In this document: one piece after another, positions 43,310-63,785 of the stretch
How the letters are laid out: every line of letters starts with the position of its first letter
How positions within the stretch are numbered: position 1 is the first letter of the stretch
Source of the DNA: an uncultured Oscillospiraceae bacterium
GTDB taxonomy: Bacteria > Bacillota > Clostridia > Oscillospirales > Oscillospiraceae
Length of the DNA: 64,000 nt
Assembly: GCA_905233385.1 (NCBI GenBank)
Contig: CAJOEH010000012.1
Coordinates: forward strand, 38,114-102,113
Direction of reading: 5' to 3'
Notes under the pieces: model-generated
Database searches by the model: none
What the model saw: only the letters and a program-made list of their open reading frames with translations
What the model was told of the DNA's origin: nothing
Position numbers and translations under genes: made by a program

Positions 43310-43403
43310 AATGGGGACACAGAAATACCTTCCGCATCTCCACTCAAGTAACCCTGAGTGATAGTCGTCAGCCCGTGCGCGAAGCACTTCGTTACAGCTA
43401 TCA
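43310..43403 (-). ncRNA. Structured leader upstream of ssnA, candidate cis-regulatory RNA
   Basis: On the transcript of the 43422 promoter: TGATAG (43398-43403) pairs with CTATCA (43359-43364), enclosing a GTGC/GCAC hairpin (43375-43387). A second hairpin CACTCA/TGAGTG (43341-43360) follows. GTAAC (43391-43395) in the first element is the exact complement of GTTAC (43348-43352) in the second hairpin loop, allowing a pseudoknot. The two helices share two bases at 43359-43360, so they may be alternatives. It matches no riboswitch consensus that I can recall. The function is inferred from position only. Confidence 0.45.
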
Positions 43404-43421
43404 ATCTTCAATTACACTTTA

Positions 43422-55641: not shown

Positions 55642-55668
55642 AGTATATGCGGCGAATAGAGAAAGGGT
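55642..55668 (-). promoter_or_regulatory. Sporulation-type (sigma E/K) promoter of the PG-binding operon
   Basis: On the minus strand AC, 17 bases, CATATACT (AC at 55667-55668, -10 at 55642-55649), about 19 bases before the ATG at 55623. Same layout as the cotJ promoter. Confidence 0.45.
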
Positions 55669-55718
55669 GCAATCAGTACCCTTTCAAACTGTAGACAGAT
55701 GAGAAAACCTGCGATAAC

Positions 55719-55845
55719 GGGAAGGAAGAAAGTGTGAAAGAAACCCAGGAGGGGTGTCTTTCACGTTCGATAAAAAACGGATTTTCAAACGGTTCGAGCG
55801 TTTGAAAATCCGTACAGGGAGCCGACAAAACTTTGTCGGCCCCCT
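55719..55845 (-). repeat. Three-hairpin spore-region repeat, copy 1
   Basis: Hairpin A GTGAAAGA/TCTTTCAC with inner ACCC/GGGT (55734-55764), hairpin B GGATTTTCAAACG/CGTTTGAAAATCC (55777-55813), hairpin C CCGACAAA/TTTGTCGG (55821-55840). On the minus strand, B is followed by TTTTTT and would terminate the 55847 gene. Copies 2 and 3 are at 56361 and 59551; order and spacing are the same. Confidence 0.8.
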
Positions 55846-55846
55846 T

Positions 55847-56278
55847 TTATAGAAACGCTTTCATTTGGTTGATGTTGTCCTGCTCCGTCTGCAAAAGCCG
55901 CTTGGAAAGCCCCGCGACCTTCGGCTCCAGCATGCCCATCGTCCGGATGTTGTGCATACTTTTGATCATGCCGCGAGTGTTGCCCTGCAGCATCAGCTCC
56001 GCGATCTTCGCGGTCGGATCGACGGAGGCGCGGACGCGGAGCTTGGACGACAGCGCGGAGCCGTAACGGGCGATCGGCGTGACGTCCTTCGGCTTGCCGC
56101 AGCGGTCCTGCAGGAGCTGATCCGCCTCCTCGTAGATCTTCGCGTACTCCTCGTACTGCTGGCGGAGGGCGGCGCGGAAGCTGCGGTTGACCGTCTCGTC
56201 CATGACCGCCTTGATCCCGTAACAGCCCATCTGCGTCGTCTGCCGTATGGAGTTCAGCATGGGAATCTCGTTGCTCAT
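55847..56278 (-). CDS. Helical hypothetical protein (DUF2383-like)
   Basis: A 143-residue, almost wholly helical protein: GCYGIKAVMDETVNRSFRAAL, YEEYAKIYEEADQLL, MIKSMHNIRTM and RLLQTEQDNINQMKAFL suggest a four-helix bundle of the DUF2383/ferritin-like type, but without clear di-iron ligands. No signal peptide. The ATG at 56278 has GAGGTGA upstream; the GTG three codons before it overlaps this site. It is flanked on both sides by copies of the three-hairpin repeat, in the spore gene region. A spore-specific structural role is a guess. Confidence 0.65.
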   Translation of the reverse strand: MSNEIPMLNSIRQTTQMGCYGIKAVMDETVNRSFRAALRQQYEEYAKIYEEADQLLQDRCGKPKDVTPIARYGSALSSKLRVRASVDPTAKIAELMLQGNTRGMIKSMHNIRTMGMLEPKVAGLSKRLLQTEQDNINQMKAFL

Positions 56279-56360
56279 CAAAATCACCTCGGGAATAGCG
56301 TTGCCTCGTTACAGCAAATTTATACACTGTGCCGCTTATTACCGTATGGAGAAGAATAAT

Positions 56361-56490
56361 CGGAGGGAAAGAAAGTGTGAAAGAAAACCGTCAGGGTTGT
56401 CTTTCACGTTCAATAAAACCGGCTTTTCAAACAGGTTTTATGTTTGAAAAGCCGTGATTTCTCGTGTCAAAAAGACATTTTGACACGAGA
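56361..56490 (-). repeat. Three-hairpin spore-region repeat, copy 2
   Basis: Hairpin A GTGAAAGA/TCTTTCAC with inner AACC/GGTT (56377-56407), hairpin B GGCTTTTCAAACA/TGTTTGAAAAGCC (56420-56453), hairpin C CTCGTGTCAAAA/TTTTGACACGAG (56461-56489). Compared with copy 1, the changes in A and B are paired on both arms, so the helices are kept. Confidence 0.8.
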
Positions 56491-56494
56491 AATA

Positions 56495-56524
56495 CGCGGC
56501 GCCGTCATTTTTGACGGCGCCGCG
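56495..56524 (-). terminator. Terminator of the Q/N-rich peptide gene
   Basis: A 12-bp all-GC-rich stem GCGGCGCCGTCA/TGACGGCGCCGC with a four-base loop, 7 bases beyond the peptide stop. The trailing T content is low (GTATTTC). Confidence 0.65.
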
Positions 56525-56530
56525 CATGCT

Positions 56531-56617
56531 TTATCTGCAATTCTGTTCGCTGTTCTGATTCTGGCTCTGATTGCTGTTCTTGTTCTGCTTTTTCTGATTC
56601 TGACTGCGGTTTTCCAT
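56531..56617 (-). CDS. 28-residue Gln/Asn-rich peptide
   Basis: A small ORF of 28 codons reading MENRSQNQKKQNKNSNQSQN, then QNSEQNCR. It has a full AGGAGG ribosome binding site at 56626-56631 with an 8-base spacer, and a strong hairpin behind the stop. Almost half the residues are Gln or Asn, with one Cys near the end. It lies between spoVAE and the 143-residue helical protein, inside the spore region. The composition recalls small acid-soluble or coat-matrix peptides, but there is no family I can name. Translation is supported by the signals, not by homology known to me. Confidence 0.65.
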   Translation of the reverse strand: MENRSQNQKKQNKNSNQSQNQNSEQNCR

Positions 56618-56681
56618 GACCGGAACCTCCTGTATTGCATTTTGCGGATCGCTCCGCAGGGTTAGTATGCCCGCGTGCGCG

Positions 56682-57035
56682 TCATTTATCCTTCGGTTGG
56701 AAGATCAGCCCCGCGAGCAGACCGAATACGACTGCGGCGCAGATGCCGGCCGCCGCCGCGGTCAGACCGCCGGTAAAGACGCCGAGAAATCCGTCGCGGA
56801 GCACGGCCTCGTGAACGCCTTTCGCCAGCGTATTGCCGAAGCCTGTCAGCGGGACGGTCGCGCCCGCACCGGCAAAATCGACTAGCTTCGGATAGAGTCC
56901 GACCGCTCCGAGGAAGACGCCCGCGACGACGTAGGAAACGAGGATCCGCGCCGGCGTCAGATTCGTCTTGTCGATCAGGATCTGACCGACGACGCAGAGC
57001 GCGCCGCCGATGAGAAACGCCCATAGATAGTCCAT
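56682..57035 (-). CDS. spoVAE: Stage V sporulation protein AE
   Basis: A 117-residue membrane protein with three to four hydrophobic segments. The residues DYLWAFLIGGALCVVGQILID and LTPARILVSYVVAGVFLG match SpoVAE (SpoVAEb). With SpoVAC and SpoVAD it forms the channel for dipicolinic acid uptake in the forespore and release in germination. It follows spoVAD by 4 bases. SpoVAC, normally the first gene of the trio, is not adjacent here. C-terminus ends FQPKDK. Confidence 0.93.
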   Translation of the reverse strand: MDYLWAFLIGGALCVVGQILIDKTNLTPARILVSYVVAGVFLGAVGLYPKLVDFAGAGATVPLTGFGNTLAKGVHEAVLRDGFLGVFTGGLTAAAAGICAAVVFGLLAGLIFQPKDK

Positions 57036-57039
57036 ATCC

Positions 57040-58059
57040 TCAGCTCCTTTCCGTGGAGATCGTGACGGCGTGGCAGACCGACGGGATGGATTCTCCCTGC
57101 TGCGTGGTCAGGGGAGAGAGCAGCGCGCCCGTGCCGCAGAAGAGCAGCTTTCGGATCTCTCGACGGCGCATCTTTTGCAGCAGGTGGCCGCAAAGCACGC
57201 TTGCGCTGCATCCGCAGCCGCTCCCGCCGCAGTGCGCGTCCTGCCGCTCGCAGTCGAAGATGAGAACGCCGCAGTCCCGATAGCGTTCTTCCAGCTCCAC
57301 GCCGTCGCGGCTGAACAGGTCTTTGACGAGCCGGAATCCCAGCTTGCCGAGGTCGCCCGTGACGATCAGATCGTAGTCCTCCGGCGACGTGCCGAGGTCG
57401 TCGAAGTGTGCGCGCAGGGTCTCGTACGCCGCCGGCGCCATCGCCGCGCCCATGTTCGCCGCGTCCTTGATCCCGTCGTCGACGATCGTGCCTACGGTCG
57501 CGTTCAGAAGAAACGGCCCGTCGCCCTTGCTGCCGATCACGGCCGCGCCAGCGCCGGTCACCGTCCATTGGGCGGTCGGTGTGCGCTGACCGCCGTAGGC
57601 GAGCGGGAAACGGTACTGCCGTTCCGAGGAGGCGAAGTGCGAGGAGGTCAGGGCGAGCACCCTGCGGCAGTAGCCCGCGTTGACGCTCATCGCTGCCAGC
57701 ATGAGGCTTTCCGCCATGGTCGAGCACGCGCCGTACAGCCCGAAGGTCGGAATGTTTCGGTTGCGCATACAAAAGCTCGAGCCGACGCACTGATTGAGCA
57801 GATCGCCGACGAAGGCGGCGTCAAGCTGCTCTTCGCGTAAGCCCGCCTTTTGCAGGGCGAGCTCCATAGCGGTCCGCTGCATCTGCGTTTCCGCTTTTTC
57901 CCAGGTCTTCTGACCGAACTTTGTGTCCTTCGCAGTCTTGTCGAACGTACTGCCGAGCGGCCCGTCCGCCTCCTTCTTTCCCGCGACGGACGCAAAGGCG
58001 AGGATGGCGGGCGGGTCGTGAAATACAAAGCTCTGCTTGCCGCGATGTGCTGTTTCCAT
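57040..58059 (-). CDS. spoVAD: Stage V sporulation protein AD
   Basis: SpoVAD is the soluble thiolase-fold component that binds dipicolinic acid. The 339-residue product shows PPAILAFASVAGKKEADGPLG, GDLLNQCVGSSFCMRN, FGLYGACSTMAESLMLAAM and DDGIKDAANMGAAMAPAA. The thiolase-like active-site layout is kept, as in known SpoVAD. On the minus strand, CATAATA at 58087-58093 fits a sigma-G-type -10, although no matching -35 was seen. It lies behind the terminator of the NlpC/P60 gene, so it starts a new transcript with spoVAE. Confidence 0.95.
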   Translation of the reverse strand: METAHRGKQSFVFHDPPAILAFASVAGKKEADGPLGSTFDKTAKDTKFGQKTWEKAETQMQRTAMELALQKAGLREEQLDAAFVGDLLNQCVGSSFCMRNRNIPTFGLYGACSTMAESLMLAAMSVNAGYCRRVLALTSSHFASSERQYRFPLAYGGQRTPTAQWTVTGAGAAVIGSKGDGPFLLNATVGTIVDDGIKDAANMGAAMAPAAYETLRAHFDDLGTSPEDYDLIVTGDLGKLGFRLVKDLFSRDGVELEERYRDCGVLIFDCERQDAHCGGSGCGCSASVLCGHLLQKMRRREIRKLLFCGTGALLSPLTTQQGESIPSVCHAVTISTERS

Positions 58060-58103
58060 GGCTTGCCTCCGTGATCATACTGTTTCTATTATGCGCAGAA
58101 GCG

Positions 58104-58132
58104 AAAAAAACCGCTCTCAAATGAGAGCGGTA
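58104..58132 (-). terminator. Terminator of the NlpC/P60 gene
   Basis: Minus-strand stem ACCGCTCTCA/TGAGAGCGGT with a TTTTTTT tail, 12 bases past the stop. Confidence 0.88.
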
Positions 58133-58143
58133 ATTATTGACAG

Positions 58144-59067
58144 TTAACTTGCGATCCGGTGGGCGCACAGGAAGCGGCTCGCGTACCAGTCGTCGAACAG
58201 CGAGGTGATGACCACGCCGGTCGAGGGATTCTGCGCGTGGATGAAATCGCCGTTGCCGAGATAGATGCCGACGTGGGTCGCGACGCTGCCGTAGCCGAAG
58301 TAGATGATGTCGCCGGGCAGCATACTGTCGTAGGGGATATTGTATCCGTCGGCAAGCTGCGCCGTCGCGGTGCGGTTGATGCTGTAGCCGAGCTGCGCAT
58401 AGACGTACTGCACGAAGCCGGAGCAGTCGAAGCCGGAAGGGGATTCGCCGCCGTAGACGTAGGCGCAGCCGAGATACTGCTTTGCGCAGGCCGCGATCTG
58501 CTCGCCGGCAGGGCTGTAGGCGGTTGGGTCGTTCTCGTCGACCACCCATGCGACGCCGTCCGTGTTCTCCGCGGGCTTTTCCAGCAGAGCGATCTCTTCG
58601 CTTCGGACAAAGCCGATCGTCTCTTCCTGCTGCACGCGATACCAGCCGTCCGCGAAGCCGAGGATATGTACGTGCTCGTCTTTCACGAGCGGATAGATCT
58701 CGGGGCTGGCGGTCGTCGGACCGCCGCGCAGACTGACGGTTTCCGCGTCGATCGCGCCTTCGCCGAGATCGACGTCCATGCGGTCGGAGACGACCAGATA
58801 GTTCTTGTGCATGTAGCCGATATATAGATTGTAATTGACGAGATACCAGTCGCCGACCTTGTCGAGGATCACGACGGTATCGCCGCCCTGCGCGATCGTG
58901 ATGGTTGCCGAGAGCTTATCCGGCTTCTCGCGCAGCCGCAGGCCGTCGTTCGACTGCACCGTGCCGATCGCGATCTTCGGCTCGCTGGCGGAGACCTCCT
59001 GCTGCAACAGGGGCAGAAGGATCAGGCAGAGTGCAAGCACGAAGGCGAATTGCAAAATCCGTTTCAT
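58144..59067 (-). CDS. Secreted NlpC/P60 endopeptidase with SH3b domains
   Basis: A 307-residue exported wall hydrolase. Signal peptide residues 1-28 (MKRILQFAFVLALCL). Two SH3b modules follow, about 35-95 (GLRLREKPD) and 105-165 (VSLRGGPTTASPE). The C-terminal NlpC/P60 domain has the catalytic Cys215 in DCSGFVQYVY, His265 in THVGIYLG and His277 in FIHAQN. It would cleave within the peptide stem. The ATG at 59067 follows GGAGGAAAC. It lies among spore genes, so a cortex or germination role is possible, but such enzymes also work in vegetative cells. Confidence 0.92.
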   Translation of the reverse strand: MKRILQFAFVLALCLILLPLLQQEVSASEPKIAIGTVQSNDGLRLREKPDKLSATITIAQGGDTVVILDKVGDWYLVNYNLYIGYMHKNYLVVSDRMDVDLGEGAIDAETVSLRGGPTTASPEIYPLVKDEHVHILGFADGWYRVQQEETIGFVRSEEIALLEKPAENTDGVAWVVDENDPTAYSPAGEQIAACAKQYLGCAYVYGGESPSGFDCSGFVQYVYAQLGYSINRTATAQLADGYNIPYDSMLPGDIIYFGYGSVATHVGIYLGNGDFIHAQNPSTGVVITSLFDDWYASRFLCAHRIAS

Positions 59068-59090
59068 GTTTCCTCCCGAACGGGGTTCGA

Positions 59091-59390
59091 TTATTTTGCG
59101 TTCAACGCACGCTCCAGCCATACACAGCCAACATCCAACGCCGTGTAGAAGCCGTCTTTTTCACTCTTTTTCACAACGCGGTCGCGTGCCTTCGCATTCG
59201 GATCGGTGAGCTGAAGCTGGACGGAGACCTTCGTCGCGAGATCGAGATCGTTCATTTTCGTGGATTCAAGGACCTGCAGCATGACGATGTATTCATCCGC
59301 CATGGAGCCGTAGTAGATCAGGTTGTCCTTGCGCATCAGGGGATGGCCCTTGTACATCAGGACTTCCTTTTTTTCGGAATTTTCAGCCAT
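59091..59390 (-). CDS. Conserved hypothetical protein (99 residues)
   Basis: I do not recognise this protein. It is soluble, with mixed alpha/beta pattern: KEVLMYKGHPLMRKDNLIYYGS, EYIVMLQVLESTKMND, and a charged end KARDRVVKKSEKDGFYTALDVG. No signal, cysteine or catalytic motif. The start ATG at 59390 follows GGAGG and a TTGACA promoter. The upstream open stretch to 59546 is promoter and repeat sequence. It is monocistronic, 23 bases before the NlpC/P60 gene start, so the two could share a transcript. Confidence 0.65.
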   Translation of the reverse strand: MAENSEKKEVLMYKGHPLMRKDNLIYYGSMADEYIVMLQVLESTKMNDLDLATKVSVQLQLTDPNAKARDRVVKKSEKDGFYTALDVGCVWLERALNAK

Positions 59391-59418
59391 AGAGACCTCC
59401 AGAATAGAGTGTAACCGG

Positions 59419-59447
59419 ATTGTAACACATTGAAACGGAAATGTCAA
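59419..59447 (-). promoter_or_regulatory. Promoter of the 99-residue protein gene
   Basis: Minus-strand TTGACA, 17 bases, TACAAT; the -10 ends 28 bases before the ATG. Confidence 0.75.
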
Positions 59448-59550
59448 CCATATTGTTACGATCGGTCCGCTGCGGGGAAAAAGGATGTTGTCGAGAGGAA
59501 TGAATTGCAATGAAACGGTACGAAATAGAAATGCAGAAGTCGGCATATAC

Positions 59551-59678
59551 GGGAAGGAAGAACGTGTGAAAGAAACCCGGGAGGGGTGTCTTTCACGTTC
59601 AATATAACCGGATTTTCAAGCTTTTTCAAAAGGTTGAAAATCCGCTCCGCACGTCGAAAATTGTTGTCGACATGCGGA
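59551..59678 (-). repeat. Three-hairpin spore-region repeat, copy 3
   Basis: Hairpin A GTGAAAGA/TCTTTCAC with inner ACCC/GGGT (59566-59596), hairpin B GGATTTTCAA/TTGAAAATCC with a different loop (59610-59643), hairpin C CCGCA/TGCGG plus GTCGA-type pairs (59647-59677). It lies between the ireB terminator and the 99-residue protein's promoter. Confidence 0.8.
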
Positions 59679-59711
59679 AAAACGGGGCTTCCGCTGACGC
59701 GAAAGCCCCGC
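59677..59711 (-). terminator. Terminator of ireB
   Basis: Minus-strand stem CGGGGCTTTCGCGTCAGCGGAAGCCCCG (imperfect) with TTTTT, directly past the ireB stop. Confidence 0.75.
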
Positions 59712-59720
59712 TGCTGTTGA

Positions 59721-59966
59721 TCAATCGAAGAGATAGTGACGGACAAGCTCCTGCAGAAGCTCATCGCGGTCGAGCTTGCAGATGAGGCTGCGAGCGTTAT
59801 TGTGGTTGGTGATATAGGTCGGGTCCTCGGAGAGGATATAACCGACGATCTGATTGATCGGGTTGTAGCCCTTTTCGGTCAGGGAACGGTAGACCTTGGA
59901 AAGGGTCTCCTTCATTTCGTCATTGCTTTCTGCGGGTACCGCAAATTTGATGGTGCTCTGATCCAT
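59721..59966 (-). CDS. IreB-family regulatory phosphoprotein
   Basis: An 81-residue member of the IreB/UPF0297 (DUF965) family: [50 protein letters not shown] is nearly the entire conserved core. In Enterococcus, IreB is a substrate of the PASTA kinase IreK and modulates cephalosporin resistance. The family often neighbours ruvX (yrrK), which is not in this window. The start at 59966 follows AAAGGAGG. It has its own promoter. Confidence 0.92.
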
Positions 59967-63529: not shown

Positions 63530-63785
63530 AATTTCAAAAAAATATGCCCTCCGTCCGATAGGGGACGAAAGACATGCTTCCGCGGTACCACCCGCAATTC
63601 GCCGCTGACACGACGCGCTCTGACCTGTAACGGAGCGACCCGTCCGCGCCTAATACGAAACAGATTCAGCGCGGCAGCTCACGGGAGAAAGCCGAACTGT
63701 TCACAGCAGACGCTTGCAGCAACCGCGTCCTCTCTGAAGCTGCGCCGAACAGCCGACGGCCCGATCATAGCCTTTTTCCTGTTGC
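63530..63785 (-). promoter_or_regulatory. T-box riboswitch of pheST
   Basis: The T-box GGGTGGTACCGCGG is at 63580-63593 on the minus strand. Stem I shows AGAGAG and GCTGCAAG distal elements (63725-63735 and 63714-63721 region). The TTC at 63694-63696, just after GAACAG, is the likely Phe specifier. The terminator is a GU-rich stem (GTCTTTCGTCC with GGACGGAGGGC, 63539-63572) with a T run. tRNA-Phe dependence is inferred from the downstream genes. Confidence 0.92.

Follow-up and report, generated by a model that had tools for sequence, protein, structure and literature searches.

The window analysed here, a 64,000-nt stretch of DNA from an uncultured Oscillospiraceae bacterium, carries in its spore-gene region three copies of a short element built from three successive hairpins, A, B, and C (55718-55844, 56361-56524, and 59550-59710), all in one orientation. 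Their places and orientation agree with the initial annotation of this sequence. The hairpin A pattern, GTGAAAGA..TCTTTCAC, was matched at 55734-55764, 56377-56407, and 59566-59596, i.e., three times in the window compared with a mean of 0.00 over 100 shuffles. As set out below, a small mobile DNA element inserted at each of these three places, and its copies there are now worn. Our full reading, to which we give a probability of about 0.7, is that they are worn insertions of a miniature inverted-repeat transposable element (MITE) whose intact relatives lie between two terminator copies, that the MITE is likely mobilised by an IS1182-family transposase, and that hairpin A and the purine leader before it are predicted to form a triplex in single-stranded DNA.

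Each copy runs in the order left end, purine leader (of the CGGGAAGGAAGAAAG or CGGAGGGAAAGAAAG type), hairpin A, GTTCAAT spacer, hairpin B, and hairpin C, mostly followed by a predicted intrinsic terminator. Hairpin A comes in two subtypes in this genome, and the changes in A and B are paired between copies just as had been described. Hairpin C had been called variable and wholly different between copies while always pairing. Paired changes were indeed found in C, as in B, across 16 aligned copies from this genome (a further one, C8 at L007, reaches into masked sequence and was excluded), but most copies have in common a C core of the GCGTGTCGACAA..TTGTCGACACGC type; the right end of the element lies within C, which accounts for this core. 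The parts of the three window copies are listed here.

55662..55684, unstranded: resident terminator hairpin to the left of copy 1, AAAGGGTGCAATCAGTACCCTTT; its ortholog in four congeners is a bare terminator (empty sites L346-L349)
55686..55703, plus strand: left end of copy 1, AAACTGTAGACAGATGAG, of the CAGACTGTAGACAAACGAG type (likeness judged by eye)
55718..55731, plus strand: purine leader of copy 1, proposed third strand; mirror covariation with the 5' strand of hairpin A
55732..55764, plus strand: hairpin A of copy 1; pattern match, covariation
55778..55812, plus strand: hairpin B of copy 1; covariation; with TTTTTT after it when read on the minus strand, a possible terminator
55817..55844, plus strand: hairpin C of copy 1 with the right end, in the place expected for the right terminator copy
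56361..56374, plus strand: purine leader of copy 2, proposed third strand
56375..56407, plus strand: hairpin A of copy 2, second subtype; pattern match, covariation
56420..56454, plus strand: hairpin B of copy 2; covariation
56457..56493, plus strand: hairpin C of copy 2 with the right end TTTTGACACGAGAAAT; paired changes
56495..56524, unstranded: resident terminator hairpin to the right of copy 2; an orthologous bare hairpin in four congeners
59550..59563, plus strand: purine leader of copy 3, proposed third strand
59564..59596, plus strand: hairpin A of copy 3; pattern match, covariation
59609..59644, plus strand: hairpin B of copy 3; covariation
59647..59677, plus strand: hairpin C of copy 3 with the right end; paired changes
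59683..59710, unstranded: resident terminator hairpin of the IreB gene, right of copy 3; a bare hairpin in four congeners
59721-59966, minus strand: IreB gene (PF06135)

Empty sites and duplicated terminators

To place the window copies in a wider family, we compared them with the rest of the genome and with relatives. The genome (29 contigs, 1.88 Mb) holds 17 exact hairpin A sequences, three of them in this window, and BLAST and the strong matches of a covariance model (CM) point to the same 17 places. The remaining 14 copies lie outside this spore-gene region; by eye, two of them adjoin the ends of EF-Tu-like and GroEL-like genes. A terminator-like hairpin stands beside every copy from this genome that we displayed, and on both sides in about half (by eye). 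Beyond this genome, one CM search (CM R1) gave matches in 18 of 119 relatives and another, with a model of the element's core (CM R2), in 83 of 400 family genomes, covering 37 of 106 genera; both sets of counts were obtained under strict filters and are lower bounds. A pattern scan of genome contigs returned at least 117 stretches with an A module. Among the 80 listed with titles are Oscillibacter, Flavonifractor, Pseudoflavonifractor, Acutalibacter, and Oscillospiraceae, while some are titled only Clostridia, Bacillota, or uncultured bacterium; Flavonifractor plautii is one species with copies. One relative (G021) yielded 22 CM R1 matches, mostly of one score. Nine of its fetched copies end at contig ends, and the contig-end pairs L101/L106 and L104/L105 match, by eye, as the two sides of a single insertion.

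The orthologous loci of relatives and the flanks of other copies support the suggestion that the element is a mobile unit. First, at the IreB locus (copy 3), nine of the 11 displayed loci from other genomes cover the stop codon and none holds the element; in the four nearest genomes (G001, G006, G010, and G012) the corresponding position is taken by a bare hairpin, AACGGGGCTT..AAGCCCCG. Second, the site of copies 1 and 2 is covered by seven of the eight displayed loci from other genomes. Neither element is present in any of them, and both terminators stand bare in the four genomes just named. Third, many copies elsewhere are bracketed by a repeated terminator. We took 158 placed copies, i.e., distinct copies that match the module pattern and have full unmasked flanks among the loci collected, and found a flanking direct repeat (score >=16) around 89 of them, compared with 1 of 158 in a control in which the right flank was taken from another copy. 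The repeats have a median length of 30 nt (35 bp at L110, 28 bp at L109, and 34 bp at L127 are typical), and a folding energy of -6 kcal/mol or lower was obtained for 82 of the 89; in these the duplicated sequence is a hairpin, the resident predicted terminator. The end motif TGT[CA] lies at the repeat border on the left in 53 of 89 copies, on the right in 68, and on both sides in 43; distant windows gave 13/146 and 14/146. The length between the repeats has a median of 161 nt (range 92-214, n = 89), too short for a transposase gene.

Several features of the copies fit this picture less well. No flanking repeat was found around 69 of the 158 placed copies, the three window copies included, and this speaks against our full reading. 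Each window copy is without one terminator copy (only the left one remains at copy 1, and only the right one at copies 2 and 3), and the duplication test is therefore negative for them. A few of the 89 repeats come from tandem arrays (L002, L014, L053, L276, and L294), where the repeat may partly be the element itself. Instead of being made when the element inserts and duplicates its target, terminator pairs might also stem from gene conversion or tandem duplication in the surrounding DNA. Arrays of terminator and element do exist (L002 and L014), and one copy (L136, G006:C52) has a 49-nt flanking repeat that extends past the terminator and is without the left end of the element; both speak for such an origin. 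Set against this, the empty sites hold a single terminator, and autonomous IS1182 elements of other genera duplicate terminators perfectly (34 bp in G104 and 30 bp in G106). We consider that origin of the pairs very improbable, and we are confident that the element is a mobile, terminator-entering MITE of about 160 bp.

A few copies stand out by their arrangement. At L002 and L014, terminator and element alternate in tandem (terminator-element-terminator-element), with close pairs also at L276 and L294; the units at L014 differ in few letters. At L026 (G000:C28), a type-1 hairpin A is joined to hairpins B and C that are almost the same as in L008 (G000:C9), a type-2 copy. This copy seems to be a chimaera, as if modules recombine between copies. 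Three contigs of a viral collection (L327, L328, and L329) carry an A module and are perhaps host flanks of proviruses. A phage or plasmid origin of copy 2 was rejected, as it has no phage or plasmid match.

A candidate IS1182-family transposase

An element of this length would depend on a transposase supplied from elsewhere. We found a DUF772 transposase (PF05598) in one of eight genomes. This protein, at L158, belongs to the IS1182 family (NF033551, 362.9 bits against a cut-off of 270). It has matches (E <=0.001) in 33 of 149 genomes, but many of these matches are weak or partial. The insertion sequence (IS) of this family in G006 starts with CAGACTGTCAAAAAAC, directly after a terminator hairpin. 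Compared by eye, its left end and that of type-2 elements are alike in 16 of 16 letters, and the hairpin before the IS recurs after an IS right end on another contig of the same genome (L190). Elsewhere, IS1182 elements lie between terminator duplications that are perfect in G104 and G106 and near-perfect in G127. The common left end and the like terminator duplication make it most likely that the element is an IS1182-derived MITE, and it is likely, as a prediction from these sequences, that an IS1182-family transposase moves it in trans. The non-autonomous transposon would enter a predicted terminator, which would be copied to both sides, with the transposase supplied in trans.

Three observations count against an IS1182 origin. 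First, the right ends of element and IS differ, with 11 of 15 letters alike (by eye). Second, no IS1182 transposase was found in G000, G001, and G021, whose assemblies are incomplete and which hold 17 to ~20 copies each; the transposase is perhaps lost there or missing from the assemblies. Third, the A/B module has only one match, with an E value of 1.2, in IS1182 bodies over 33 sources. The IS bodies are without the module, and therefore the IS itself does not need it. In four IS1182 right ends (L190, L191, L197, and L202), we noted a hairpin directly inside the end, adjoining the transposase stop, which is perhaps a built-in terminator. IS1202/ISNCY-type elements make long target repeats. 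A transposase of this type was rejected as the mover: NF033594 gave a match in one of eight genomes, at 34.3 bits (below the cut-off of 250), and by eye there are no matching ends at the locus of that match, L159.

Among the nearest known systems are IS1272 and TnSha1 of staphylococci, which likewise have IS1182-family transposases and hairpin targets. In the descriptions given in PMC4923244 and PMC5678879, several of these targets are transcription terminators, there is no primary sequence preference, and the target stem-loop of IS1272 is partly deleted or replaced, with no target duplication seen; for palindrome targets in the IS1182 family, both cite Siguier et al. 2015. The Oscillospiraceae elements differ in that they duplicate the whole stem-loop. 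They resemble hypothetical pathway b in Figure 13 of PMC5678879, in which joining at the 5' feet would duplicate the entire stem-loop, and the element would thereby realise a branch of the IS1272 model that had been drawn as a hypothesis. Such duplication also explains how an element can land in a terminator with almost no effect, since the stop signal ends up on both sides.

BOX, RUP, and other bacterial MITEs depend on other transposase families. As presented in PMC10969869 (see also PMC3049150), pneumococcal BOX, RUP, and other bacterial MITEs are similar to the present element in that they are short repeats, contain stable stem-loops, and depend on a transposase acting in trans; unlike here, terminator duplication and mirror covariation go unmentioned in the passages considered. 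A search of a limited literature collection returned nothing on Oscillospiraceae together with miniature inverted-repeat elements.

Covariation of hairpin A and its leader

Hairpin A is, we are nearly certain, kept by compensatory change across genera. We aligned 101 distinct A modules, of the 117 found by pattern. Over 13 pairs, 94.3% of cells are paired, a value reached in none of 500 shuffles, and the covariation score is 0.360 compared with 0.176 in shuffled alignments (again 0/500). Changes on both sides occur at 8 of the 13 pairs (reached in 2/500 shuffles), there are 17 further pair types (4/500), and slid registers leave only 36-61% paired. The selection for RNA or DNA structure that had been proposed from three copies is supported by this covariation, which does not fail but holds over many more copies. 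The changes of a decaying insertion, named in the initial annotation as evidence to the contrary, are seen in each of the three window copies taken singly. In one relative (L149, G038:C38), an insertion of ~58-60 nt sits in the upper stem of hairpin A, and the lower stem is still paired.

The purine leader has no partner in the hairpin model. A mutual-information (MI) scan showed covariation in mirror order between this leader and hairpin A's 5' strand. We applied Fisher tests to 28 leader/stem haplotypes from 78 modules, which are not phylogenetically independent. The mirror pairs gave p values of 6.7e-4 (G10-G24), 2.2e-5 (G12-G22), 1.4e-5 (G13-G21), and 1.2e-3 (G14-G20); for the twelve other pairings of these leader and stem positions, p ranged from 0.011 (13-22) to 1. 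With G.GC, A.AT, and T.AT counted as the allowed triplets of an antiparallel purine motif, 89 of 112 haplotype positions are allowed, compared with a mean of 57 and a maximum of 72 in 2000 shuffles. When haplotypes were split by loop type, 134 of 164 were allowed, whereas 5000 shuffles of leaders within loop types averaged 97.5 and never exceeded 118; later loci brought the count to 140 of 172 (shuffled maximum 122).

As laid out in PMC4666352, a class I intrastrand triplex consists of a 5' reverse-Hoogsteen strand, a purine strand, and a pyrimidine strand, is antiparallel, and uses GGC and A(T)AT triplets. The leader and hairpin A fit this order, and we think it more likely than not that an intrastrand purine-motif triple helix, which is a predicted fold, is the structure under selection. 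A motif of this class is expected to have at least six consecutive triplets. In window copies 1 and 2, all six triplets at positions 15-10 are allowed (pair 15-19 by eye); copy 3 has five, with one triplet broken. The hairpin A strand, when single during replication or transposition, would fold into a class I triplex with the leader as third strand, and the triplex might act in cis in mobility, e.g., as a polymerase pause or as a structure that the transposase can reach.

Not every module agrees with the predicted triplex, and the following details weigh against it. All six letters at positions 15-10 are allowed in only 34 of the 78 modules; 35 have five and nine have fewer. A10 occurs with G24 in 8/78 modules and A12 with G22 in 3/78, T stands opposite C-G at 14-20 in 14/78 (not counted as an allowed triplet), and an A.G mismatch lies above the triplet run. 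The non-independence of the haplotypes noted above has to be counted here as well. The motif departs from the ITxF loop rule (both loops 1-6 nt): the third-strand loop has 3 nt, and the other loop spans columns 25-39. This second loop is too long because the duplex goes on, and a strict ITxF rule would miss the motif. According to PMC4666352, the TMECO motif of E. coli formed no stable triplex in vivo.

Alternatively, the mirror signal could be a by-product, if leader and stem of a few lineages shifted jointly in G content through drift, with no third-strand contact involved. Copies that share a lineage are related, the types of leader and loop are linked, and the register is not clear-cut on every measure. 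Paired in direct order, leader and stem have 75 of 112 triplets allowed (89 in mirror order), which likewise exceeds the shuffled maximum of 72. The direct register j-i=8 has a mean MI of 0.37 over five pairs, compared with 0.22-0.26 in mirror registers 34-35. The highest MI of all belongs to a non-mirror pair, leader 14 with 22 (0.71, compared with 0.59 for its mirror partner 20), and the p value of 0.011 is also that of a non-mirror pair. The high MI of the direct register arises because positions 12-14 and 20-22 each move together, and the Fisher tests do separate the mirror register from the direct one. By those tests the G changes are position-specific (24/10, 22/12, 21/13, and 20/14). 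The same co-changes recur on different loop backgrounds, and the signal persists when leaders are shuffled only within loop types (0/5000). In stems such as GAAGA and AAGGA, it is the mirror position that changes while the direct position stays the same; they favour the mirror register, but are few. On balance, we find a by-product of lineage doubtful.

The selected structure of the same MITE might instead be RNA, i.e., a terminator, an RNA stabiliser, a small RNA, or a leader peptide that starts at an NTG in hairpin A, with the leader covariation as an RNA tertiary contact. The strong hairpin covariation would be expected of such an RNA, and on the minus strand a T6 tract comes after hairpin B of copy 1. 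A GGAGG-like run also lies ~10 nt before the NTG (56375-56450 and homologous positions), which starts a short reading frame across hairpin A and is TTG in G055 and L130, with the proviso that the search pattern itself demanded G or T before TG. The peptide, V-K-E-N-R-Q-G-C-L-S-R in type 2, was rejected: column entropies at the three codon positions (0.34/0.71/0.62) do not follow the pattern that coding constraint would give, and some copies (L013 and L144) have a frameshifted hairpin A. The search for an Rfam homologue of hairpin A likewise came to nothing, with no family at the gathering cut-off over the element in the window and only tRNAs above the cut-off in five loci. Watson-Crick pairing in RNA leaves the mirror-register covariation unexplained, and purine-motif triplexes are stated in PMC4666352 not to form in RNA. 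The leader covariation follows the antiparallel purine-motif rule, which therefore favours a structure in single-stranded DNA over a small RNA. The small RNA or processing site considered in the initial annotation thus finds no support in copies that lie at terminators, covary with their leaders in mirror register, and match no Rfam family, and we regard selection for RNA structure as unlikely.

A structure that forms in single-stranded DNA could show a preference for one replication strand. The strand of hairpin A has positive GC skew in 89 of 142 short loci and in 46 of 61 stretches of up to 20 kb; local GC skew may also reflect genes. With replication arms assigned from dnaA, 14 of 19 sites agree (p = 0.064): 8/10 in G198, 5/5 in G232, 0/1 in G201, and 1/3 on contig C2 of G436. 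In these counts, the tandem pair of G198 was counted once, and the copies on C1 and C3 of G436, whose arm is unknown, were left out. Within G198, GC skew and arm agree at 10/10 sites. Crude calls of open reading frames, which are poor in these genomes, gave no gene-strand bias (28/61). The bias of the element to one replication strand is only suggestive.

The motif invites comparison with PIT, BoxC, and TMECO in the account of PMC4666352, where one strand similarly holds all three parts, with the class I order, antiparallel, and with GGC and A(T)AT triplets. TMECO as treated there is unlike it in being class II, G/C-rich, and proteobacterial, with no transposase or integrase found near; the Oscillospiraceae motif rides on a MITE and covaries, and covariation receives no mention in the text of PMC4666352. 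That paper was the only one in the limited literature collection to combine mirror repeats and triplexes with insertion sequences and hairpins in bacteria. Covariation in triplet register would be evolutionary evidence that triplex motifs do arise in bacterial cells or have a role there. Tentatively, and with the odds leaning against so specific a proposal, we suggest that this could be the first natural DNA triplex whose three strands are seen co-evolving by covariation, that it may be selected in single-stranded DNA, mostly of the lagging-strand template, and that it may help an IS1182-type MITE to enter and double terminators at the replication fork.

Other features of the window

Three further features of the window lie on the minus strand. 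Between copy 2 and SpoVAE, at ~56532-56617, there is a very short Asn/Gln/Ser-rich frame, with a variable repeat in congeners. An ssnA RNA motif (RF03031, 65.3 bits) was found at 43360-43407, and a T-box leader (RF00230, 107.4 bits) at 63558-63777, upstream of genes that, named by eye, likely encode phenylalanyl-tRNA synthetase.

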